This document shows, piece by piece, positions 10,296 through 54,882 of a stretch of DNA of 64,000 nucleotides. Positions within the stretch are counted from its first letter, which is position 1; the number at the start of each line of letters is the position of its first letter. Source of the DNA: a virus; the IMG/VR virus record IMGVR_UViG_3300028392_000029, positions 159,177 through 223,176 of that record; one strand, given 5' to 3'. The notes beneath the pieces were generated by a model, which worked only from the letters and a program-made list of their open reading frames with translations, was not told the DNA's origin and searched no databases. The position numbers and the translations under genes were made by a program.

Positions 10296-12089
10296 TTACG
10301 GTGCTGGAGCCGGCGCCGCCTTTGGAAGTGAATCAATAGCAGTTTGTGCGGATTGTAATGCGGCGTTAATGCCGGCATCGTTGCCGTCATCTGGTAATTG
10401 AGCCATGATTTTTCTAATCTCGTCAACCATTGCTGTTTGTTCCGGTGTTGGTCCAACTGGCACTACAGGAGCTACTGGTTTGTTTGGATCTACTACTGGT
10501 TTATTTGGATCAACTGGTTTATTTGGATCAACTGGTTTATTTGGATCAACTGGTTTATTTGGATCAACTGATGGATCTGGACCTTGTCCTTTATTTGGAG
10601 TTAACGCAAGACCAGCGGCACCTCCTAATGCTGCCGCACCTAATGCAGTTTTAACTGGGTTCTTTGCAATTGCTGAACCTACGCCCATTCCTTTAAGTGC
10701 CGCATTTGAAGGAGCTCTTTCAGCGCCAGCTTTTGCCATTGCTTGCACCTGGGCAGGCGTATACTTTGCTACTTTGTTTGCTCCACGGCCAGTAGTTTGC
10801 GCCGCTAATTTGTCAGCTGACTTTTGAAAGGCAGCTTTGTCTACAGTATTAGCTAATCCTGGTTGGCCTTTCAACCCCTTCCAAGCCGCACTACCAAAGT
10901 CTGCTATATCACCAAAGATACCTTCATCTAGTGTTAATGGTTTGTTCTTTACACTTTCCCAGATGTGTTTTACTGTTGTAGTGTCTGTAACTAAGTCACC
11001 GTTGGTTCTATAAAAATTACCATCAGTGCCTAAGAAATATTCTTTGTCTAATGTTGACATAGCTTCTAACATTTCTAAACGATTGCGTAGACGAACAATA
11101 GACTCGGCAGCAGATTCTGCGGCAGGCATTGTGACTCCATATTGCTTCATAGCGGCTTGAGTCATCGGACCCATTTTGCCATCAGCTTTAATCTTAGCAC
11201 CTTTCTTGATTAGTTCATTTTGTACAGCAAATACTTTAGCATCTCCACCAGGTGGAACTGCAGGTTTACTATCAAACTCACCATGTTTGTAATCACGAGC
11301 TAAGTTGGCGGCATCTAATCCTAATGATGCGGCAGTGCCAATTCCTGGAACTAAACTAGCTAGACCACTGGCACCAGCCATACCGGCACCTAACCAATCA
11401 CCTTTCTTAGCGCGATTATACGCATCGGCAGCACCGAATGCTAAACCAACACCAGGGATAGCTTTGCCTAACATTTTACCAACACCTTTAGCGCCAGCGT
11501 ATGTTGCGCCACCGACGGCAGCTTGTTGTGCTAGGCTTGCTTCGCTTTCAGTTTGATAACCAAAACTCTCAATCAATCTACGCGAGTTAAAAGATTCCTT
11601 AACGGCTGCAGGAGTTTTTAATGATGCTTGTAATTTTTGTACTAGATCTGCCAACTTAGTCATGTTGGCTTGATTTTGCTCGTTACTGTTTAGTGTAGCA
11701 TTAGTTCTATCGCTTTGTGTTTGTACATCCTTGTCGTACTTACCACCACTTACGCCAAACAGTCTACCAAGGAATGAACTCTTGTTTGCATTCTTAGGAA
11801 CTAGACCTAAATTAGCTAATTTTTGGTCATCTTCTTTGCTAGCAGTAGTACTGATACGTGCTGTTGGCTGTCCGCCGTCGCTAGCCGGGTTTAATACAGC
11901 AGAAACATAGTTACCGCTTACTGGATCATACAATCCTGGCAAGCCGTTTTTCTCAGCCATCTGTTGTAGTGTAAGTGAACGAGCTTGTTCATTACTAGCA
12001 CCTTGTACGGCAGCTTCTACATCTCGCAATCTAATACCTTCGGATAGTTCGATTGCATCTAGTTTGTTCATTAATTCACGAATGTTCAT
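10296..12089 (-). CDS. Putative internal virion protein with peptidoglycan-binding-like domain and DPNKP repeats
   Basis: This 597-residue protein starts at 12089 (MNIRELMNKLDAIELSEG), with a TTTCCTTT-derived AAGGAAA upstream. The N-terminus fits a T4-like capsid-targeting peptide with a possible gp21-type cut after LSE17. Residues ~225-270 form a Gly/Ala-rich hydrophobic stretch (GKAIPGVGLAFGAAD, SLVPGIGTAASLGL) that could insert in membranes. Residues ~283-320 resemble a PG_binding_1 domain (VQNELIKKGAKIKADGKMGP). A second Gly/Ala-rich segment precedes a run of DPNKPV repeats (~503-536) and an Ala/Pro tail. It has no enzyme motif. Its composition suggests an ejected or internal head protein; that role is inferred. 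Confidence 0.7.
   Translation of the reverse strand: MNIRELMNKLDAIELSEGIRLRDVEAAVQGASNEQARSLTLQQMAEKNGLPGLYDPVSGNYVSAVLNPASDGGQPTARISTTASKEDDQKLANLGLVPKNANKSSFLGRLFGVSGGKYDKDVQTQSDRTNATLNSNEQNQANMTKLADLVQKLQASLKTPAAVKESFNSRRLIESFGYQTESEASLAQQAAVGGATYAGAKGVGKMLGKAIPGVGLAFGAADAYNRAKKGDWLGAGMAGASGLASLVPGIGTAASLGLDAANLARDYKHGEFDSKPAVPPGGDAKVFAVQNELIKKGAKIKADGKMGPMTQAAMKQYGVTMPAAESAAESIVRLRNRLEMLEAMSTLDKEYFLGTDGNFYRTNGDLVTDTTTVKHIWESVKNKPLTLDEGIFGDIADFGSAAWKGLKGQPGLANTVDKAAFQKSADKLAAQTTGRGANKVAKYTPAQVQAMAKAGAERAPSNAALKGMGVGSAIAKNPVKTALGAAALGGAAGLALTPNKGQGPDPSVDPNKPVDPNKPVDPNKPVDPNKPVVDPNKPVAPVVPVGPTPEQTAMVDEIRKIMAQLPDDGNDAGINAALQSAQTAIDSLPKAAPAPAP
10474..10571 (-). repeat. 18-base tandem repeat encoding DPNKPV
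   Basis: About four to five copies of an 18-base unit (TGATCCAAATAAACCAGT on the coding strand) encode successive VDPNKP hexapeptides, with one diverged copy at each end. The copies are nearly identical at DNA level, so the tract is probably young and prone to length change. Confidence 0.85.
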
Positions 12090-12090
12090 T

Positions 12091-13170
12091 TTATTTTCCT
12101 TTATTTGGTACACAGTTAGGTACTGACTTGCTGCCTTTTTTCTTTGTACCAACCATTTTATAACCTTTCCAGCACGGATCATTCATCATTTCATCTATGC
12201 CAGCAGGTATGTTTCTGCTGTTTGAGCCGCCGGCTCGACGTTTAGCACCCAATTCTCCTAGACCATGACTAATTTGTTCAATATTCATAGCAAGTTCGGG
12301 GAACAGCTTAGTAATATGTTGCCATATTCTAGGATCATCACTTTGAGCCTGTTCTGCTAGATCTTTTAATTGTCTACGAGCTCGCATAATGCGATACTCG
12401 ATACTACCTGGATTCGCACCTTTATGACTGTGAATAGTACTGGACATAGGGTTTTCACGATCAAAGTCTAATGGAGTTTCTGCCACATTACCTTGTAGAC
12501 CAGGGCCGCCTGGCCCAGGTTTAAATCCCATGTTGTCAGATAACCCTTCTTGCATGGTCTTTAACAGCTCTTGGGCTTTTTCAATGCTAATCATATAACG
12601 GCCGAGTCTGTTTGGATCAGCGGCTTTTTCTAACCACTCTTTACTATAACCAGTTGGTGCTGGAGTTGGAGCCGCCGACGGCACGACTGGTTGTTTACCT
12701 TGTTCTCTTGCTGTTAGTTCAGCCTGCGCATCAGCTACACTAACCATGTATCTTCCAAGTCTGTTTGGATCGGAGGCTTTGCGCAACCATTCTGTATCAA
12801 ACCCACTTAAATCGGCACCTTCTTTTATACGTTGCGTCGACTCTCTCATTAAGACACGTTCAGCAATAGTCTGAGCGTATTGTTTATACATTGTATTTTT
12901 TTGTGTCAATCTTTTGGTAGCATCTGTTTCAGCTTGATCAAAATACTTTCTGATACTCGATTCACGAGTAATATTTGAAACAGGAGTAGTAATAGGTTGG
13001 CCAACAACAGGTTGCTGATAGTGTTGCATTGCCATTTGTACTGGCAATGTTACTTTGTGTGGATTGCTGCCTTCGTTGATAATAGAAAGAAACTTGGACA
13101 TGCTATCAACGCCTTCCACAGGCTTCGAAGATGCCCCATCCATCGCCTGTAGAATACGTTTCATGTCCAT
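12091..13170 (-). CDS. Putative internal virion protein with duplicated DPNRLGRYM motif
   Basis: This 359-residue protein (MDMKRILQAMDGASSKPVEG) contains SKFLSIINEG near residue 26-35, another candidate T4-type prohead-protease site (I-N-E-G). A ~27-residue motif is present twice, near residues 123 and 180: W-L-[RE]-K-A-[SA]-DPNRLGRYM[VI]S-[IV]-x-[KD]-AQ. A Pro/Ala-rich linker separates the copies. The C-terminus has DPCWKGYKMVGTKKKG...VPNCVP, a Cys-containing motif I associate with marine T4-like phage proteins. It has no catalytic signature. It is part of the 18807-10296 operon, between two other low-complexity genes. Confidence 0.7.
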   Translation of the reverse strand: MDMKRILQAMDGASSKPVEGVDSMSKFLSIINEGSNPHKVTLPVQMAMQHYQQPVVGQPITTPVSNITRESSIRKYFDQAETDATKRLTQKNTMYKQYAQTIAERVLMRESTQRIKEGADLSGFDTEWLRKASDPNRLGRYMVSVADAQAELTAREQGKQPVVPSAAPTPAPTGYSKEWLEKAADPNRLGRYMISIEKAQELLKTMQEGLSDNMGFKPGPGGPGLQGNVAETPLDFDRENPMSSTIHSHKGANPGSIEYRIMRARRQLKDLAEQAQSDDPRIWQHITKLFPELAMNIEQISHGLGELGAKRRAGGSNSRNIPAGIDEMMNDPCWKGYKMVGTKKKGSKSVPNCVPNKGK

Positions 13171-13174
13171 TGTA

Positions 13175-14710
13175 TTAACCTAATAGACGCTTTGTTAATG
13201 CACGAATGCTAGCAACTTCACCTGATTCAGCAACCATAGTTCGCTCGTTTTGATTTAAACGACCTGTTAGTTCGCGCATACGTGATAAGTCAGAGGATTC
13301 GTTAGTGCCAATTGGATCTTTTTTGCCTGCTGGTGCTGGCATCATTGCTCCTAACTTCTTGGCTTCTTCAGCATCCTTAGCACCTGATGGATTTGGAACA
13401 ACGGTCAAATTCTCGTCTGTAATCTTTTCTTTCTTTTTCTTTTCAGCTAGATACGCTTGAGTTTCTTTGATGTTCTTCCACATAGCGGCAGCGGCAACCT
13501 TCTCACCTTTCTCACCGCCACCAGCAGCCTTGGCCACTTTGTCAAAACTCTTACCTGGCTTACCAATGTCGCCACCTGCTTTAGCTTTCTTAACTACAGC
13601 AGATTTTTTCTCTTTGCTTAGACCTGCGCTTGGTTTTGCGGCTTCCTTAACAGACTTTCCGCCTTTTTCATCTTTGCCAAGACGTCCGGCGATAACATCA
13701 CCACGTGTTACTTTGTCGTATGGTTTAGCGTTGTTGGCCAAGTTGCCATCGCCTTTCTTTTTAGCTTCGTCTAATTCAACTTCTTTTTCTTTCTTTGGCT
13801 TAGCAGGTGCACCGTCACGATTGTCAAACTTCTCGCTATCCTTCATACCCCATGTCTTAGCACTTTTAGGAGACATCTTTTGTGCAGGAGCTTTTTCTTT
13901 TTTCTCTGCGGCCGACTGCGATTTAGCATGGGTCTTAATACCCTTACCTGATTTAGCGTTCGAAGAGATTTCGTCGCCGTCGTCGTGATACGTAGTATTG
14001 GTATGCTTCATACCGGTATCAGTTTTAGTTGCTACACCTGTGCGTGTTTTAAATGTATCACCAGTCTTTGATTTGTCGGTAAATTCTTCATCTAAGTCTT
14101 CTTCACTGTCAGGAATACCATTGTGATTTTTATCTAAACGCTTGTGAGCGGCATGCATAGCTTTAGTTTTGCGATCGTAATCACCAGCCATTTTCTTAAC
14201 ATGATCTGGAATTGGCATCGCTTCGACATATACCATACCAGTACCACCACACTCTGTACATTGTTGCTCACCACCGCGCAACGGACCTTCCATTACTTTT
14301 TTATCTTTGGCTTTTTCAGCTTGAGTCTTTTTAAGATCTTTCATCTTAGATTTAGCTTCTGAAAGCAATTCTTTAATTTTCATACGTTGTCCTTCGCTTA
14401 ATGTATCGCTGTTATCTAAGTGTTTACCATATTCACTAAATTTCATCTCATATTCTAAGTAGTGGTATACTGATGCAATATAATCAGCGGCCTTAGTGAT
14501 CTTAGCTTGCACCCATGCTTCTAACTGATCATCGTCATGAACTTGTTTGAACAATTTCATGCTATAGTTAGCTAGTTTGTATAGATCAGCTTTGGCCATT
14601 GCGCCTTCGTGATCTAATTCATCACTGTGCAAGCCTACTACTGCTGACTGTTCAGTTGGGCTACTTTGTGGTTCCATTTCTGGGTTCATTTGGTCTAAAT
14701 CTGCTGGCAT
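13175..14710 (-). CDS. Low-complexity Lys/Ala-rich virion-associated protein
   Basis: This is a 511-residue protein. Residues ~35-95 form a helical domain (AKADLYKLANYSMKLFKQV, KITKAADYIASVYHYLEYEM) of a type I recall from T4-like cyanophages. This is followed by a CTECGGTGM DnaJ-zinc-like knuckle near 150, an EF-hand-like loop (DKNHNGIPDSEED near 193-205) and a long Lys/Glu/Ala/Gly-rich disordered region. Several [L]-x-E sites (TLSEG, LLSEA, YLAEK) could be prohead-protease targets. GGAG precedes the ATG at 14710, and a late promoter element (14734-14741) overlaps the previous stop codon. Its likely role is a scaffold or internal head protein, inferred from composition and neighbours. Confidence 0.7.
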   Translation of the reverse strand: MPADLDQMNPEMEPQSSPTEQSAVVGLHSDELDHEGAMAKADLYKLANYSMKLFKQVHDDDQLEAWVQAKITKAADYIASVYHYLEYEMKFSEYGKHLDNSDTLSEGQRMKIKELLSEAKSKMKDLKKTQAEKAKDKKVMEGPLRGGEQQCTECGGTGMVYVEAMPIPDHVKKMAGDYDRKTKAMHAAHKRLDKNHNGIPDSEEDLDEEFTDKSKTGDTFKTRTGVATKTDTGMKHTNTTYHDDGDEISSNAKSGKGIKTHAKSQSAAEKKEKAPAQKMSPKSAKTWGMKDSEKFDNRDGAPAKPKKEKEVELDEAKKKGDGNLANNAKPYDKVTRGDVIAGRLGKDEKGGKSVKEAAKPSAGLSKEKKSAVVKKAKAGGDIGKPGKSFDKVAKAAGGGEKGEKVAAAAMWKNIKETQAYLAEKKKKEKITDENLTVVPNPSGAKDAEEAKKLGAMMPAPAGKKDPIGTNESSDLSRMRELTGRLNQNERTMVAESGEVASIRALTKRLLG

Positions 14711-14733
14711 GAGTATACTCCGTTATCTTTATA

Positions 14734-14741
14734 TATTTATC
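14734..14741 (-). promoter_or_regulatory. T4-type late promoter upstream of 14710
   Basis: GATAAATA on the minus strand, followed by TATAAAG, matches the late -10 consensus in seven of eight bases and lies 24 bases ahead of the ATG at 14710. It overlaps the stop codon of the preceding gene. Confidence 0.6.
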
Positions 14742-15213
14742 GTTTGATGCTTCCGCCAGTCATTAGATTCACATCTATATCTAGGGCGTTTTTAGCTGTG
14801 CCGTCTTTGTTTTTAGGCTGTTTTACTGGTTTATTCTTATATACCGGGCCTACTGATACATTAGCGGCACTGGTTGCTCCAGCGGTTGCTGATTCTGACA
14901 CATCTTCGGGTTTACCAAACGGATGTACTTCAATCCACTTGCCGCCTTCATTTTTAATCCATTTTTCCTGATGAAACTTACTTTTGACAATGCCGTGCAT
15001 TTTTAATGCCTGTTCAGGACTATCTCTAAATCCCTGTTGGCGAGCTTCATGTTCGCGATGGTTACTGATCATAGCTTGATGTAACCTACCATCTTTAAAA
15101 ATGTATAATAGATTTGATTCGTCTTCTGCAGGATTGCGGCGCTGACTACTAAATCCTGTGCGATTGTTATCGTAATTGTTATAGTGACCTTCGTCAAGTT
15201 CGTGCATTTTCAT
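14737..15213 (-). CDS. Small virion-type protein with capsid-targeting-like N-terminus
   Basis: This 158-residue protein begins MKMHELDEGHYNNYDNN; LDE-G at residues 6-9 fits the [L/I]-x-E cleavage rule of the T4 prohead protease. The middle (LLYIFKDGRLHQAMISNHRE, QALKMHGIVKSKFHQEKWIK) is basic and His-rich. The last third is low-complexity Ala/Ser/Lys and ends in LMTGGSIKR. AGGAAAATAAA precedes the ATG. It lies in the middle of the cargo-like operon. Function is unknown. Confidence 0.68.
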   Translation of the reverse strand: MKMHELDEGHYNNYDNNRTGFSSQRRNPAEDESNLLYIFKDGRLHQAMISNHREHEARQQGFRDSPEQALKMHGIVKSKFHQEKWIKNEGGKWIEVHPFGKPEDVSESATAGATSAANVSVGPVYKNKPVKQPKNKDGTAKNALDIDVNLMTGGSIKR

Positions 15214-15214
15214 T

Positions 15215-15508
15215 TTATTTTCCTACAGGTTTTTCGCCAGTTAAGTACGGCTTACTAAACCACAGTTGAAACCATTCTGGGGTTCCGGGACGAATATGAT
15301 GCTTACGCTCTAGCTCTTGTTTGCTCATACCAGTAACACTGATATTACTGCCTTGATTAGCACGGTATTCGTGTAGTCTAGCTTCGCCACCTAACCCGCC
15401 TAGTCCTGCTAGTGCTTTCATTTCGTGTATAGGATCACTCGGATCTAAATAGCAGTCATCTGAACTATCTTGATTTAAATCCTGCGTAGTAATTCTATAC
15501 TGTTTCAT
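15215..15508 (-). CDS. Small phage protein, unknown function
   Basis: This 97-residue protein starts at 15508 (MKQYRITTQDLNQDSSDDCY). This ATG is chosen because it makes an ATGA overlap with the Dps stop and has GAGG nine bases upstream; the open frame itself begins eight codons earlier. It contains a short Gly-rich stretch (ALAGLGGLGGEARLHEY) and the sequence HHIRPGTPEWFQLWFSKPYL, where the aromatic-rich tail may bind a partner. It is translated together with the Dps-like gene. No function is known. Confidence 0.65.
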   Translation of the reverse strand: MKQYRITTQDLNQDSSDDCYLDPSDPIHEMKALAGLGGLGGEARLHEYRANQGSNISVTGMSKQELERKHHIRPGTPEWFQLWFSKPYLTGEKPVGK

Positions 15509-15945
15509 TTTAAACTTGACCTCAGCATCCAACTGTGCTTCTTATGTGCATCCTGTCGATCAGCTAAGAAATTACTCAGCCCGTGGTCACCATGCGCTTC
15601 AGCCATATCAAACGTAATGCGAAATATCTCAGCCATTCTGTCACTATCTGTTAATAATTCTTTTAGCATACCGCTCCAATCTGGTACATGATTTTCATCT
15701 TCTACCACAGTCAGCATACTGAATTTTTGTAAACTAGCCGGTGTATAAATCTGTAGAGCACGTAGATGTTCCGCAAACGGATCAATTGCACCATATACTT
15801 CCTCGTATATGGTTTGAAACAGTTCGTGTAACTGACCAAACAACGGTCCTTCTACATTCCAGTGAAAGTTATGCGCTTTTAGATAAAAACTAAATTCACT
15901 AGCAAAAGCTGTTTTTAATGATAAGTGATATTTGTCGTGTTCCAT
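15505..15945 (-). CDS. dps: Dps-like ferritin (DNA-binding protein from starved cells family)
   Basis: This 146-residue protein has the Dps/ferritin four-helix pattern: FYLKAHNFHWNVEGPLFGQL, then YEEVYGAIDPFAEHLRAL, and a C-terminal helix GDHGLSNFLADRQDAHKKHSW. The intersubunit ferroxidase ligands of Dps are present: His28, His40, Asp55 and Glu59. Dps proteins form 12-mers that oxidise Fe(II) with H2O2 and protect DNA. The Lys-rich N-terminal DNA-binding tail of E. coli Dps is lacking. It sits in an operon of putative capsid cargo but has no capsid-targeting-like N-terminus itself. With SOD and a haem peroxidase in the same window, an oxidant-protection role is likely. Confidence 0.87.
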   Translation of the reverse strand: MEHDKYHLSLKTAFASEFSFYLKAHNFHWNVEGPLFGQLHELFQTIYEEVYGAIDPFAEHLRALQIYTPASLQKFSMLTVVEDENHVPDWSGMLKELLTDSDRMAEIFRITFDMAEAHGDHGLSNFLADRQDAHKKHSWMLRSSLK

Positions 15946-17240
15946 TATATACCGTATTTGTTTCTTTTGGCTTTATTTACAGGGCTAGTTTTGTTAGTGT
16001 CAGCGGGCTCTTCGCTCTTGCTAAACTTGCTAATTGTTTTTCCATCAGTGGGGACAGTTTTCATAGCCGATCGAATCTTATTATCGTCTTCTTTGGTGTA
16101 AGGATGATGTGTATTATACTTTTCAGCCCAGGTATCTTGCGGACTGTCTACAGCTTTTATACTCTCGCCGTCGGCCATGGCCATGGCCATCATCATGCGA
16201 TTCATGTGATAGATACGATCGTACCCGCCGATATCGCGTGTTCGAATTACGCCCAGGCTGGCGGCATCGTGGTGGGGGTGTCGATGACTAGTTTTACCTT
16301 CGCGTACAAATTCGTTAGCTTTCATTTCTCTTAATACCCTGTTAGCTTCTTTAATCAAATTAAAGGCTTTTAAATTCTTTTTTGGTGTACTACTATTTAC
16401 ATCAACTGTACTATTCTGTTTTGTAATAGTGCCGACCCCGGCAGCTTCTTCGTCAGTTTTAGTATATACTTGTTGCGGTTTTTTATGCCCCTCACCTCGT
16501 TCCATTTTATCAGGATCTTTGGATTTTTCTTTTTCAAAGTACTTGCGCATTTCTTCTGCACTGGTCGTTGGCTTAGCTTTAACAGGTTTAGTCATGAATC
16601 CCATTAAGCCTTCATCAGTTACTGGTTCTGCTACAGGTTTTTCTTTTTTAGCTCGTTTTACTTTTTCAGGATGTTGGCCTACTGCGGCTACTACTGTATC
16701 AAAATAGTGTTGACCATTTACTTCTAGATTAGGATCTGTACCAGCGGCTCGATAAAATGCGTCCATGTTACCAGCACGAGCCGCATTGCGTAGATCAGTT
16801 GCTGAGCTTACTCTGGGACTTGGTATATGGATGATTTTAGCAAAGTTAAAATAACCATGTGTACTTTCCTTGCCATTGTATTGATTTAATAATTTTCCAG
16901 CCCATGCCCAGTCAGTTGCATCAGTTATATAAGCTACAGTTGCACCATCTCCAACTTCTGCATAAATCTTAGAGGCCAGTGTGATAACTGTAGATTCACC
17001 TAACACATGTCCTTCAATGCTGGGATCAATTGCAGACATCCATGCTGCCTTAACATCAAACGGCAACGGATCGTTGGTGCCGGTTGTACTAGGATTAGTA
17101 CCTATGTACCATTGATGACCTGCATGTTTAACAGCTTCCCAAACTTTGGCATGCCCTTGATGCGGTGGATTGAACCGACCAAAGCAGAATGCCGCAGTTA
17201 CCTTAGTATGAGTTGATTCAAAAAGTTCACGTAAATTCAT
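15945..17240 (-). CDS. Nucleotidyltransferase (cytidylyl/NMN-adenylyltransferase superfamily) with long C-terminal extension
   Basis: This is a 431-residue protein. The N-terminal ~165 residues are a nucleotidyltransferase domain: GRFNPPHQGH (HxGH at 27-30), a central DATDWAWAGK segment, and RVSSATDLR near 146-152, the ISSTxxR motif. The enzyme class transfers NMP to a phosphorylated partner (NMN, phosphopantetheine or sugar phosphates); the substrate is not predictable. The remaining ~260 residues are charged and low-complexity, with a His-rich patch (SHRHPHHDAAS). The N-terminal MNLRELFES fits a capsid-targeting peptide (LFE-S). The start codon overlaps the stop codon of the ligase-like gene upstream. 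It is possibly a packaged enzyme. Confidence 0.78.
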   Translation of the reverse strand: MNLRELFESTHTKVTAAFCFGRFNPPHQGHAKVWEAVKHAGHQWYIGTNPSTTGTNDPLPFDVKAAWMSAIDPSIEGHVLGESTVITLASKIYAEVGDGATVAYITDATDWAWAGKLLNQYNGKESTHGYFNFAKIIHIPSPRVSSATDLRNAARAGNMDAFYRAAGTDPNLEVNGQHYFDTVVAAVGQHPEKVKRAKKEKPVAEPVTDEGLMGFMTKPVKAKPTTSAEEMRKYFEKEKSKDPDKMERGEGHKKPQQVYTKTDEEAAGVGTITKQNSTVDVNSSTPKKNLKAFNLIKEANRVLREMKANEFVREGKTSHRHPHHDAASLGVIRTRDIGGYDRIYHMNRMMMAMAMADGESIKAVDSPQDTWAEKYNTHHPYTKEDDNKIRSAMKTVPTDGKTISKFSKSEEPADTNKTSPVNKAKRNKYGI

Positions 17241-18433
17241 TATGGTGTCCAGGCTGGTATAGTTCCAGACGGAGTTTCGATACTACTACGCGGAACTAGT
17301 TTAATATGATCATCACCTTTTTTATCGTAGTGTACCCAGCCCTCTGGGTTGGTTACTTTAATCTCACCGGGATCTTTATCTAATTGTGCAATTACACTGT
17401 TCTTCAATTGCATAATATCGTCAAACAAATTAAACATTGCAGGTAGTGCTCCTGGGAACATCTTTGCACGTTCTTGTACCTTAGCCAACTGTGTTGGACT
17501 TACAATTGTTGGATTAGATTCCATCCACATCATAAAATTATGACCGACATTGTGTAATTGTCCTTGCTTACTCATAGTATTAACATATCTGTAAACAATA
17601 TTTTTAAATCCACTTACTCCGGGTAGTGGTGATAAGAATTGATCAATTTCAGCTGAATGTTTTTTAATTTCTGCTTCAACAATAGATATAGCTTGAGAAT
17701 CAACTTCCGGCTGCATCTGGGTATAGTATGGACCTAGTACGATCAGTTGAGATGTTGAATTAAACTCTTCAAAACTGTCTTTGGGTTGTTGCGTATGGTC
17801 GGCGTCTCCGAATGTTTCAAATATGCCATGACCAACAACCATTGCATGCGCTGTAGAAATTTGTTGTCCTAGATCAGTATCCTGTGCAATATGATAAACT
17901 GTTCCGCTTTTTGGATTTGGATGTAAATTATATATTCCATCAGCATCTGGGGTTGGTTGCCCTAAGAATAACCCATCGGCGTAGACAAATCCTCTAAAAT
18001 CTTCAGGGGTAGCTTTTTCAAACACTGGATGTAAGAAACTAAATTCTCTAGCAAACTCTTTACGTTGCTCTTGTTCTTCGGGGGTCTTTGGATTACCACT
18101 CTTGTTAAGAATAAAATTATAAATTCCTTGCTGTGTGGTAAACTCGTCTAATGTACTTGTACCAGTGCCGCCACGCAACCAACCATTGTGGTTAGTCAAT
18201 ATAAATGTACCATTCTCATCTCTGCCCCAATACACTTGCGGAGCACCGTCCCACTTGTATCGAACACCCTTGGCATTTTTGCCTATGGCTTTGATATGTT
18301 CCAGCGCCTTAATTGCACCAGCACTGCCATTTAAAAATGTTAGATCCTCTGGATGATTGAATGCCCTACCTACTTTTTTCTTAACTTCTTCAGCGGCTGG
18401 GGCTTCTCTTAAAAATAATTCTCTTAGTAACAC
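17240..18433 (-). CDS. Ligase/nucleotidyltransferase-like protein (KxDG motif), DUF6267-like
   Basis: This 397-residue protein begins at a GTG (18433) preceded by AAGGA. Residues 59-63 read YKWDG, the KxDG motif I of ATP-dependent DNA/RNA ligases and capping enzymes (Lys60 would be adenylated). DGLFLG near 155 could be motif III-like. EGWV (364-367) and IKLV (377-380) match motifs IV and V (EGxV, xK). Such proteins are frequent in T4-like cyanophages and are usually left unnamed. The N-terminus MLLRELFLREA resembles a capsid-targeting peptide with LRE-A as a possible cut. I read it as a candidate end-joining or nucleic-acid-repair ligase carried in the virion; activity is unproven. Confidence 0.6.
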   Translation of the reverse strand: MLLRELFLREAPAAEEVKKKVGRAFNHPEDLTFLNGSAGAIKALEHIKAIGKNAKGVRYKWDGAPQVYWGRDENGTFILTNHNGWLRGGTGTSTLDEFTTQQGIYNFILNKSGNPKTPEEQEQRKEFAREFSFLHPVFEKATPEDFRGFVYADGLFLGQPTPDADGIYNLHPNPKSGTVYHIAQDTDLGQQISTAHAMVVGHGIFETFGDADHTQQPKDSFEEFNSTSQLIVLGPYYTQMQPEVDSQAISIVEAEIKKHSAEIDQFLSPLPGVSGFKNIVYRYVNTMSKQGQLHNVGHNFMMWMESNPTIVSPTQLAKVQERAKMFPGALPAMFNLFDDIMQLKNSVIAQLDKDPGEIKVTNPEGWVHYDKKGDDHIKLVPRSSIETPSGTIPAWTP

Positions 18434-18435
18434 GA

Positions 18436-18807
18436 TTAGTCCTTATACTTGCCATCGGCAACGTGCTTACAAGTTTCATCGTGTATTTTTTTACATACTT
18501 TACTGCAAAGTTCCTCATCTAATTCGTCTGGTAGTTCGCGAATCGGAAATTTTTTAATGTACAATTTATAGCTAGCCTGTACAGGCACCTTAAACATATT
18601 TGGATGTGTTGCACGATCAGCTTTCAAACGGTCTATGCACTTGGAAATAACTGGATGGACATGACGTCGATACGATCTGTCATCGTTATGCATAAAATGA
18701 ATTAAATCATCCGGAAGGTCGTAGTTAATCTCTCTGCCGTCATTCTTTGGCGAGACAAAGTCTAAATCTTTGAAGATGGTGCCTTCTAATAGCTCATTTA
18801 TGCGCAT
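18436..18807 (-). CDS. Small virion-type protein with capsid-targeting-like N-terminus
   Basis: This 123-residue protein begins MRINELLEGTIFKDLDF; LLE-G at residues 6-9 fits the T4 prohead-protease rule. The body is mixed, with HFMHNDDRSYRRHVHPVISK in the middle and a C-terminal Cys/His pattern (ELCSKVCKKIHDETCKH) that could bind a metal ion. It is the first gene of the 18807-10296 operon, 47 bases downstream of a late promoter element. Function is unknown. Confidence 0.68.
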   Translation of the reverse strand: MRINELLEGTIFKDLDFVSPKNDGREINYDLPDDLIHFMHNDDRSYRRHVHPVISKCIDRLKADRATHPNMFKVPVQASYKLYIKKFPIRELPDELDEELCSKVCKKIHDETCKHVADGKYKD

Positions 18808-18853
18808 TGTTAAATCCGTTTTTATAGACCAGCAGAATAAACTACGGTTAGAG

Positions 18854-18861
18854 TATTTATC
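18854..18861 (-). promoter_or_regulatory. T4-type late promoter for the cargo-like operon
   Basis: GATAAATA on the minus strand lies between the 18880 gene and the ATG at 18807. One late promoter here would drive the whole 18807-10296 block as one message. Confidence 0.65.
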
Positions 18862-31613: not shown

Positions 31614-34600
31614 ACGGTTATCCTATCATTTCTAAATATAAGGTATTTATCGCCTAGATAACCACTGACAGAATCTATTGTATATCTGTCTACAGTATAA
31701 TCTAATACTTGAAAATCAAATTTACTAAATTTGATGTTTAGCAAAATATCGTTAGCAGTTCCTACTTTACAGAAGCAGATAGGAATAGCTAGGGTATACC
31801 CTTGTTCTTGTTTTTGCCCAGTTTGTATAGTTCTCATCCAAAGCGGCAAATAATTGCGCTCACTTAGTCCTACACCGGATAATCTTGATTGCCAGTTTGC
31901 TATACTATTGGGGAATATCGTATTTGGATTAGGATTAGAGACTTCGTATCCTGTACTGTCGGCTGTTATTATAGGCTCTGGTCGAACAGAATTTGGAGCA
32001 TCTAGATTTAAGACTGCGGCAGAGTTATTCCAGAAATTATTGCTACTATCAACTGTTATAGCATCTGAACTTATTCCAAATTTATTAATTATCTTATTTG
32101 GAAGTTTTCCACTCGCTGGACTTAGCGGGTCTATCATGTTTATATAAATTACTTCGTATAGATCCAACCCTGTAGCAGGATCTACAGCCCTTGACGATGA
32201 CACAGAGCCAAACTGGAATCTTTTACGTTTGTGATTCAATCCCATAGCCCCAATATATGCCGCTGCCTCTTTAGTTTCAATCCCGCCATATACTAGCATT
32301 GATAATGATGATTGAATACCAAAGTTTTGATCATTTATTCTATAAATGCTACTGGGTGTAAAGATGGTTGAGTCATTAATAAATCCCTTCCATATGGCTC
32401 TTTGGTCTTGTTTTAAGAATGGTCGAACTACTATGTTACTATAAGAAGTAGTATTAGGTGTATCAATGGTCAACGTAAATGTTCTAGTACGGGAGCTGTA
32501 ACCAAATTGATCTCGAGCTTCAACAGTAAACTTATACGTATAGTCAAACGTTGCGATACCTTTATCAAACGTAGTGGCACTGGTATCAAATCTAATCAAA
32601 CCCAATGAACCGTTTAACGGATTATAATACTGATTAACTTTACCAATAATTTCTCCGTCAAGATTTAATGTTAGTCCAGGCGGTAGTGCTCCGTCTACGA
32701 TAGAATAGATTACAATAGAATTAGGAACAGATGATACTGCGCTGATGTTTAATGTTGAATAGTAATCTGCATGCAATGTTTCTAAAATACTATTAGTTTT
32801 CCACGTAACAGTACTGTCAATCTCACCGATGATGGTTACTGTAAATGTTTTATATGCAACTGTAGTTTCGCCTTTCTCTCCAATTCTTGTAGCAGTCAGT
32901 GTAAAAGTATAGAGCTTGCTGATAGCAGGTTGATATGGAACTATGCCATATACCTCGCCAGTGCCTGCATCAAATGTAGTACCTGGCGGAAGTTTGCTTA
33001 ATGATCCCATATAAAACGGAACCATATCGGGAAGTGTCATTACTAGCCCAGTTGTTAGAGTTAATCGATATGCGCCACCGCCTAAATCAGCTACTACGGA
33101 AATTCTATATAGTTCACCAGTTGCATTTGGAATATAGTTTGCAAAACTAATGTATTGACCAAATAGCGGCGGACTTGATGCGTTAGTAATAGTTAGACTA
33201 TGACTGCCGATAGTGTTATCTAGATTAGTTAGTTGCTTTGTAATTGCTCGTATTTCTTGATTTGTTGGAGAAAGATTAAAAATAACATTACTATTGTCGT
33301 ATAAGACAATTGGCAGGGTGATATAGTTGTTTGCTCTAAGAACACCTAAGTTTGAATCATTAATCCATACTGGTTCGCGTAAGTATGTTGCATCAGCAGT
33401 AAAATTCCCAGCGCCACCGTCTAACGTTGTTGAGTCTGCACGGAATTGATCTGTACCTACAACAAATATTTTAAAAATTCGTTGAGCATAATTGACACCA
33501 TCAGTTAGTGTTACACGAAATTGATAATTAGAATTGATACTGTTTGGCGGATGTAACGGACTATTGTAGTCATAAAACACTCCATCATACTGATAACTGT
33601 CAAAACCGTCATTGGAAGTAGTACCAAAATCAAATGCCACGCCATCGTAATAGCCATCGTCGTATGTGCCTGAGCCGTCGATCGCTGTGATTTTATAAGT
33701 AGGTAGTATAAATCCCGATAGTCGTCCTGAACTTGACAGCGTAAGTCCTTTAGGTAGTACTCCGTCATCACTGGCTATAAAGTATGTTAGTTTACTACCG
33801 ACTACAGTGTTCAAATCAAATGCTTCAATTTGATAATCAACATGTGTATCGTCAAGTACATATAATTGCTGGTGGACTCCGATCGGCAATGGTCCAGCGG
33901 CAGTTACAAAAACTGGTATATTAGAACCTGTAATAGTTATAGTAAAAGTTCTATCGGCTATATCTGTTCCGTTTGTAGCTCTGATACAAAATTTATAAGT
34001 TGTATCGTTACTAACAATGTATGGACTTCCAGTAATTGTGCTACTTTGTAGTATCAATCCAGGCGGTAATGATCCACTAATCACTGTAAATGTTATTCCA
34101 GCAGTATCGGACAATGGAGGAGGACTAGTGCTAGGTGATCGAGCAACTATGCTTGGAACAGCGCCTGAAATAAGGTCTGCACGTTCTACTGCTACAAATG
34201 CATCAGCCTGCATGTGTACTGTATCAGTATTGCGTAAAATTATATCAGATAAGGTAGCACTATTAATCCAAGTTAAATCTGTTGGATTCCATGGTTGATT
34301 TTGATACCAAGATTGATCACCATCTCGTAATCGAATCATTTGATCTGCTATGATAGCACGGAATGTCGGGCCTACCATTGCTCCTGGATAGCGATCCTCT
34401 GCAAGACCACCAACCCATAGATCTATGTCATTGATATTAACATAAGCTGACTGTAATGCATTGGCTACAGTTACATCGCTAGTAATTTGACTAAAGCTAG
34501 TATATGCTGAAAATCCTAATGCTATACGCATTTGATTTAAACTTGGAAGACCTAAGTCACGCCCACGCTGTATATTTGTTGCGGCAAGATCTAATGCTGC

Positions 34601-54056: not shown

Positions 54057-54344
54057 ATGTATATTGGAACTGAATTTCGAGAAAACCACTATGTGCGCAC
54101 CAGCAATCGTGGTAAGACACACACCTATAGTCGTAAAAAAACCGTACTGGTATTACGGTGTGATTGCTGTGGAGAAGTATTTAATCGAGACAAGGGCAAT
54201 ATGGACCCTAATCGATTAAGCAACAACTATTATCATGTGTGTGGTAATTGTGATGCTAAAAAGTTTGCTCAAAGCAAAGGGATTGAAAGTAAGCATGTTT
54301 GGGACATGCCTGTAAGCAGTCTTAAGACGCTAGGCCAACTCTAG
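54057..54344 (+). CDS. Zinc-ribbon-like small protein
   Basis: This 95-residue protein has two cysteine pairs, LRCDCCGEVF near residue 34-38 and HVCGNCDAKK near residue 61-66. The arrangement (CxCC, ~24 residues, CxxC) suits a zinc ribbon or zinc knuckle and could bind nucleic acid. The N-terminus (NHYVRTSNRGKTHTYSRKK) is basic. No HNH or nuclease motif is visible. It reads on the plus strand and overlaps the end of the SOD gene tail-to-tail by 23 bases. Confidence 0.7.
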   Translation: MYIGTEFRENHYVRTSNRGKTHTYSRKKTVLVLRCDCCGEVFNRDKGNMDPNRLSNNYYHVCGNCDAKKFAQSKGIESKHVWDMPVSSLKTLGQL

Positions 54345-54882
54345 CACTGATTACATTCCAGTTGATAATTTTCCACTGATTAGATAGATAGCTTTTTTTA
54401 TCGGCTTGGTAGTCTAGAGCCCAGGCATGCTCCCACCAATCTACCAGCAATACAATATCCTGTCTGATTTCGTGATTTTTGATAGTCTTAATTTTTCCGT
54501 CACGAGCCAAATACACCCATCCTGAACCTTGGATTTTCATAGCTTCTTTTTCAAAGGCATCAATAAACTTATCAAAATTTTTAAAGTGTTTATCGATAAA
54601 TTCACCGGACGACCCGCTAGGCTCGTTTGATCTTGTAGGTTTCTGAAATTGCGTAAAGTATATATTATGCAAAAAAGCCCCAGCTTCGTTGAAGTCAGGA
54701 TCCCCTTCTCCTTTATTAAAACGCTTAACATATCCGCCGTACAGTTCACTATAGTGATAGTCTATGGTTTCTTCACTCATGCTGGGTTCTAAATCATCTC
54801 TTGCATAGGGCAACTTGGTATGAACCAACGTCTTGGGGGTTTTACCCTCGTTCAGCGTGATGTGTTTAATAAAGTTGTACAT
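54322..54882 (-). CDS. sod: Fe/Mn superoxide dismutase with N-terminal extension
   Basis: This 186-residue protein has all four metal ligands of Fe/Mn-SOD: His43 (EETIDYHYSEL), His72 (AGAFLHNIYF), Asp148 and His152 (LLVDWWEHAWALDY). The LPYARDDLEPSMS start of the SOD fold lies at residue 24, so ~20 residues (MYNFIKHITLNEGKTPKTL) precede it. That leader ends in LNE-G, a T4 prohead-protease-like site. The message is probably leaderless: the late element GATAAATA (54888-54895) lies only five bases ahead of the ATG. The enzyme converts superoxide to H2O2. A phage SOD with a capsid-targeting-type leader would be unusual. Confidence 0.9.
   Translation of the reverse strand: MYNFIKHITLNEGKTPKTLVHTKLPYARDDLEPSMSEETIDYHYSELYGGYVKRFNKGEGDPDFNEAGAFLHNIYFTQFQKPTRSNEPSGSSGEFIDKHFKNFDKFIDAFEKEAMKIQGSGWVYLARDGKIKTIKNHEIRQDIVLLVDWWEHAWALDYQADKKSYLSNQWKIINWNVISARVGLAS

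Follow-up and report, generated by a model that had tools for sequence, protein, structure and literature searches.

Capsid-targeting-type N-terminal peptides on unrelated proteins of a putative cargo operon in a T4-related freshwater phage

Why should unrelated proteins encoded in one phage operon begin with similar short peptides? The question is raised by a block of nine open reading frames (ORFs), g166-g174, in a 64,000-nucleotide stretch of DNA (the window) corresponding to positions 159177-223176 of the 223,176-base virus record IMGVR_UViG_3300028392_000029; the remaining record was also read. The source is a freshwater, T4-related phage with a genome of ~223 kb. All nine ORFs lie on the minus strand (window 10296-18807), with g174 as the first gene and g166 as the last. 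In T4, the prohead protease gp21 cleaves after L/I-x-E, the propeptides comprise 7-65 residues, and ten residues of IPIII suffice for the packaging of foreign proteins (T4 head review, PMC9026906). A first-pass annotation of the window proposed that the peptides of this operon are capsid-targeting sequences (CTSs) of the same sort. This reading is supported by the sequence features presented below, namely a conserved peptide, untagged neighbours, genes of this phage for a prohead protease and gp23, a promoter motif, and enrichment of such a peptide among the virion proteins of phage S-CREM2. We consider it highly probable that these genes form a cargo operon, expressed late, of an aquatic phage related to T4, in which unrelated proteins bear CTSs as in T4.

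Presence of the peptide in the operon

The peptides quoted in the first-pass annotation were all found in their places on the minus strand. The tagged genes and their peptides are as follows (aa, amino acids; a hyphen in a peptide follows the E of the site):

18436..18807, minus strand: g174, 123 aa, MRINELLE-G; small tagged protein, predicted to be mostly helical
18784..18807, minus strand: capsid-targeting-type peptide of g174, residues 1-8; conserved in the family alignment
17240..18433, minus strand: g173, 397 aa, GTG start, MLLRELFLRE-A; DUF6267 (PF19782) KxDG ligase-like nucleotidyltransferase
18404..18433, minus strand: capsid-targeting-type peptide of g173, residues 1-10; predicted short helix, then disordered linker
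15945..17240, minus strand: g172, 431 aa, MNLRELFE-S; HxGH nucleotidyltransferase (PF01467, NMNAT/cytidylyltransferase-like) with a C-terminal cargo module
17217..17240, minus strand: capsid-targeting-type peptide of g172, residues 1-8
14737..15213, minus strand: g169, 158 aa, MKMHELDE-G; contains an internal copy of the mature-capsid N-terminal peptide (SE-SATAGATSAAN)
12091..13170, minus strand: g167, 359 aa, tag-like MSKFLSIINE-G at residues 24-33; mobile C-terminal DPCWKGY...PNCVP module
10296..12089, minus strand: g166, 597 aa, MNIRELMNKLDAIELSE-G, then a glycine-rich hydrophobic segment and a segment common to g47

The block of five tagged products described earlier thus stood, with g167 as a sixth whose site ends at residue 33, but three of its nine ORFs bear no tag:

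15505..15945, minus strand: g171, 146 aa, Dps/ferritin-like, untagged; internal negative control
15215..15508, minus strand: g170, 97 aa, untagged by the pattern used; internal negative control
13175..14710, minus strand: g168, 511 aa, charged and core-like; [LI]xE sites lie inside it, among them MKIKELLSE-A at residues 110-118; no N-terminal tag

A simple ORF set of the whole record comprised 209 genes, that is, the nine of the operon and 200 others for comparison. The site [LI]xE-[AGS] occurred within the first 17 residues in 5/9 operon genes versus 7/200 others (Fisher p=2.8e-5), and a pattern built on the ligase-like (g173) and g174 families was matched by 4/9 versus 1/200 (p=8e-6); 2.2% of internal sequence windows carried the strict site. 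Because the peptide had been noticed beforehand, these p-values are partly post hoc. Replication independent of the window was obtained at 57 related loci and by running a pattern of the T4 internal proteins on the proteome of another phage. The operon tags are 8-17 residues long and the putative propeptide of g167 has 33 residues; the tags agree with the T4 CTS type, in which ~10-19 residues with L/I-x-E at their end precede the mature protein. It was confirmed that the operon peptide is real and occurs above chance.

Conservation of the peptide in relatives

When the N-termini of orthologues were aligned, as the first-pass annotation had advised, the peptide of g173 proved nearly invariant in front of a freely varying linker. 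The g173 relatives from IMG/VR comprised 52 sequences (effective number ~20, identity down to 38%). In this DUF6267 alignment, columns 1-7 had a mean entropy of 0.09 bits and E10 was present in 96%, while the linker (columns 11-23) was mostly at ~2-3 bits with indels and the body averaged 1.38 bits. Several relatives varied the peptide length and yet retained the E with a small or polar neighbour (MLLRELFRENA, MRLRQLFKEAD and MRLRELFYEAK). In the family of g174 (32 sequences), M1, I3, L6 and E8 were invariant.

Across the 57 loci, the strict [LI]xE tag was found in 41/50 members of the g174 family and in 29/48 of the ligase-like family, the remainder of which mostly had F/Y for L/I. With the same pattern, the control families gave 0/32 (DnaJ), 0/31 (Dps), 2/52 (g175), 7/49 (ClpA) and 3/36 (g170). 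Therefore, the tag is a property of particular genes and not a general N-terminal habit. Homology of g174 to the cyanophage GC198 family (MKFDELNE-G) was considered and rejected: the peptides are similar, but the profiles do not match (0.4%).

Prohead machinery and the promoter motif

The genome encodes a gp21-family (S77) prohead protease (PF03420 over cut-off, PHROG head maturation protease; G000 94110-94736) and the capsid protein gp23 (PF07068; G000 91805-92980). Between them lies the scaffold-like g92, in which 8 [LI]xE-[AGS] sites were counted versus 1.5 expected, the strongest excess in the genome.

The first-pass annotation had also suggested that one late promoter drives the operon. 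The following motif was found 53 nt before the start codon of g174, and 17/19 genome copies of this 8-mer were located <=150 nt upstream of a gene on the same strand:

18853..18860, minus strand: late-promoter-type motif ATAAATAC (context GATAAATACT), upstream of g174

The T4 late consensus TATAAATA occurred in the window less often than expected by chance and was discarded as the promoter in favour of ATAAATAC. The putative late promoter, from which transcription of the operon would start, would be this motif and not that of T4.

Modularity of the tag and unlinked tagged genes

A search for the peptide elsewhere in the genome, also proposed in the first-pass annotation, revealed tag-like starts on the unlinked genes g51 (MKSFKQYLTE), g98 (MKIYEIISE) and g199 (MYNFIKHITLNE), each with the core ATAAATA 12-25 nt upstream. 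The peptide of g98 was retained in relatives of ~26% identity. The third gene is a candidate for additional cargo:

54322..54882, minus strand: g199, Fe/Mn superoxide dismutase, tag MYNFIKHITLNE-G, own late-promoter motif; candidate cargo

The assignment of g199 is based on PF00081 and PF02777, both over cut-off. Its tag was kept in nearly all of 50 distinct relatives (~600 relatives are present in viral contigs), and more distant dismutase matches aligned to g199 only from ~residue 24.

Tag-like peptides were also found inside a protein:

16299..16325, minus strand: second, internal tag-like peptide of g172, MKANEFVRE-G, residues 306-314; at the module junction

Residues 306-431 of g172 occur as a free-standing protein in other phages, with the N-terminus MRAKEF[LIV]xE. 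Where the two parts are fused, in this phage and in several relatives, a tag-like peptide (MKANEFVRE, MRAKDFINE or MKLRELFRE) lies at the junction; other fused relatives do not have it. The C-terminal module alone, used as a query, matched no deposited phage. If the protease cut at the junction, one gene would give rise to two cargo proteins. The tag is modular, being gained, lost and moved before different bodies.

In small tagged proteins of relatives, TATAGATSA directly follows the E, and the phage's own gp23 reads E-SATAGATSAGNV (expected site E-SATAGATSA). Since such words are shared after the E, the cut in these proteins is expected at the same spot as in gp23. The gp23 sequence behind the expected cut, SATAGATSAGN, recurs inside g169 and, immediately behind the tag, in the small proteins of related phages:

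14860..14898, minus strand: SESATAGATSAAN segment of g169, residues 106-118; matches ...AESATAGATSAGN of the phage's own gp23

Tagged proteins in published virion proteomes

Cyanophage S-CREM2 has 219 proteins, 52 of which are tabulated in its virion proteome (PMC10665884). The ten-residue pattern of the T4 internal proteins matched 6/219, and five of the six were in the virion (p=0.003); this value is only a guide because virion N-termini had been seen before the pattern was fixed. The virion matches were a SAM lyase (MKDFDSFLEE), a kinase-like protein (MKRFDAFLTE), a cytidylyltransferase (MKNFSSFLTE), gp13 and gp136.

Tagged and untagged forms of the same enzymes could also be compared between phages. 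The nucleotidyltransferase is tagged and was detected in the virion in S-SM1 (MKKFSAFLNE-A), S-CREM2 and S-SCSM1 (MKSFLQFLKE-A). In S-PM2 it is untagged and was undetected in virions; there it stands in one frame after an untagged DUF6267 body (record of a spontaneous deletion mutant). Detection in S-SM1 and S-PM2 was taken from the main text of the proteome papers. In PA5oct, the superoxide dismutase (MNDSIKKYISIAE-A) is marked as identified by electrospray tandem mass spectrometry (ESI-MS/MS); the nucleotidyltransferase has the untagged start MSILTSILNN and carries no mass-spectrometry note, although its neighbours do. All of these cases of the two enzymes agree; they are few, and non-detection is weak evidence.

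A further virion protein of S-CREM2, gp12 (L108 7704-10313), is annotated as Cas9-like and has a tag-like RFASFMAE-A at residues 18-25. The codon before RFASFMAE is CTG, hence there is no ATG, GTG or TTG start at this place. The Cas9 label is doubtful because gp12 has no Pfam match.

Enzyme-like proteins behind the tag

The nucleotidyltransferase and the ligase-like enzyme that had been recognised in the first pass held up as an NMNAT-like protein (g172) and a KxDG protein with a predicted ligase-like fold (g173). For g172, PF01467 was scored at 25.4 bits versus a cut-off of 21, and the HxGH-type motif is GRFNPPHQGH. Over the catalytic domain, its best deposited matches had ~30% identity; cyanophages were reached only via a relative.

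For g173, DUF6267 was scored at 59.2 bits versus a gathering cut-off of 27. The invariant features of its family are KxDG, a motif resembling EGxV and a late lysine:

18245..18256, minus strand: KWDG (nucleotidyltransferase motif I) of g173, residues 60-63; K, D and G invariant in the family alignment

The predicted model of g173 (pLDDT 87) has a helix at residues 2-9, disorder at 10-21 and a folded body thereafter. Its structural matches were nearly all RNA/DNA ligases (Z 5-7, best Z 7.0 over 184-188 residues), among them Naegleria RNA ligase, Rnl1 and Rnl2 of T4, and Trl1; Foldseek matches were weak (best E 0.1). Unlike these ligases, g173 has a long helical insertion, and there was no sequence-level match and no Z of 8 or above. 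On the basis of this model, we read g173 as a putative nucleotidyltransferase of the ligase type. With g173 or its farthest relative as the query, direct tblastn gave no match among deposited phages, and the link from g173 to cyanophages was made through the nucleotidyltransferase and phage Melnitz. The predicted model of g174 gave no fold match.

Comparison with known systems and proposed route

In the deposited T4 genome, IPII and IPIII start with MKTYQEFIAE-A and Alt with MELITELFDE-D. The operon resembles IPI, IPII and IPIII in its short N-terminal [LI]xE peptide, in the unrelated bodies behind one peptide, and in that its genome also encodes gp23 and a gp21-family protease. However, the T4 internal proteins are small and basic, whereas the putative cargo here extends to nucleotidyltransferase, ligase-like and dismutase proteins, mostly encoded in one operon, and the peptide is MxLREL- or MRAKEF-like rather than MKTYQEFIAE. 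Alt, an ADP-ribosyltransferase, is likewise a head-carried, injected enzyme, and its MELITELFDE is close to MNLRELFE of g172, but the activities here would differ; family searches of the operon proteins found no ADP-ribosyltransferase. The cyanophage cytidylyltransferase/NMNAT-like family T4-GC190 belongs to the superfamily of g172, has the tag MKKFSAFLxE-A and was detected in virions; its gene lies in a late head-protein block between replication genes. Its similarity to g172 is remote, and the accessible part of its literature names no targeting peptide. The cyanophage peptide itself was found in one review, in passing, by a literature search that mostly did not reach subscription journals, so that earlier publication is possible.

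By analogy with T4, the operon would be transcribed late from ATAAATAC. The peptide, probably a short amphipathic helix, would dock on the scaffold core of the prohead. The phage's own gp21-family protease would then cut after the E and free the mature protein inside the head. At infection, the proteins would leave with the DNA and take part at an early stage in, for example, the metabolism of NAD or nucleic acids. On this analogy, the tagged enzymes could probably enter the host cell together with the DNA. The proposed mechanism is the one known from T4, but it would be applied here to another cargo, in another operon and with another form of the peptide, and it would cover more enzymes.

A wider proposal can be made tentatively, and we consider it possible without calling it probable: in aquatic T4-like phages, the mobile tag may be a general code that marks enzymes for delivery (ligase-like, NMNAT-like and superoxide dismutase here; SAM lyase, kinase-like and Cas9-annotated proteins in S-CREM2), and g172 may be a tagged polyprotein that the prohead protease splits at the internal tag. 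Cyanophage virion proteomes list metabolic and defence enzymes with no account of their entry route, which the tag may explain. If this is true, a readable N-terminal tag would allow the proteins that a T4-like phage carries into its host to be predicted from sequence alone. It also points to testable early-infection activities, namely NAD/nucleotide chemistry, strand sealing and superoxide removal.

Contrary evidence and alternative explanations

Several findings weigh against the capsid-targeting reading. In the ligase-like family, the position two before the E is L/I in only ~60% and otherwise F/Y, which is looser than the T4 L/I-x-E. The DUF6267 homologues of Syn9, S-RIM8, Syn30, S-SM1, S-PM2, P-HM1, ACG-2014f and XaC1 are untagged and begin at the body. 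Orthologues that keep the body and lose the peptide had been named in the first pass as a reason to abandon the idea; such a loss was seen only in these distant homologues. The tag is dispensable at that distance, which fits an add-on signal but also implies that a particular body may be cargo in some phages and not in others. When the upstream peptide was ignored, a looser site pattern separated virion from other proteins of S-CREM2 only weakly (odds ratio 2.5, p=0.025), and with a set P1' residue there was no separation (p=0.89). In S-SCSM1, the T4-type pattern picked two annotated proteins, one of which is in the virion and the other of which, SSCSM1_30, was undetected. Finally, a looser promoter form, GATAAATA, was found also before the DNA polymerase gene.

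The alternative that survives best, though it is unlikely, is that the tagged proteins are core or scaffold parts of the prohead, mostly removed or structural, and not delivered enzymes. T4 gp22, gp67 and gp68 behave in this way (PMC9026906), and g168, highly charged and with several internal [LI]xE sites, as well as g92, with its site excess of 8 versus 1.5, would suit such a role. However, g172 (GRFNPPHQGH) and g173 (KxDG) are enzyme-like with conserved catalytic motifs, and homologues of the nucleotidyltransferase persist in the mature virions of three phages.

It is rather improbable that virion detection merely reflects abundant late proteins that co-purified, so that the link between tag and virion would be indirect. 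The S-CREM2 authors themselves raised this point, noting that co-purification of abundant enzymes cannot be excluded, a point that counts against capsid targeting as well, and a translational repressor of S-SCSM1 is also flagged as a virion protein. Nevertheless, detection differs between tagged and untagged forms of the same enzyme across phages, although numbers are small, and in PA5oct the tagged dismutase was detected but the untagged nucleotidyltransferase was not.

A different role of the peptide with a coincidental E (for example as an N-terminal degron, as a helix that binds a partner within an enzyme complex, or through an effect on translation initiation) is very improbable: many tags are MxLREL-like and could share a non-scaffold partner, but genes of the same operon do without the peptide, it occurs on the unlinked g51, g98 and g199 with their own late-promoter motifs, the same peptide type marks virion proteins of S-CREM2, and that of g98 is kept at ~26% identity.

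Other observations on the operon proteins

The untagged Dps/ferritin-like g171 is retained in the cargo operon of many relatives, and together with the dismutase it could counter oxidative stress. The glycine-rich hydrophobic segment of g166 (11319-11507) has matches in PHROG families labelled endolysin, a possible sign of interaction with the membrane during ejection. A segment ENLTVxPNPSGAxxxEEAKxLGAMxP is common to g168 (13379-13414) and g50 (G000 32082-32693), both candidate head proteins. The C-terminus of g167 (12106-12180), DPCWKGYxxVGTKKKxGKxVPNCVP, matches five PHROG families at differing positions, and the DPCWKGY module was found on several cargo proteins (L018 and relatives), as a mobile C-terminal module.

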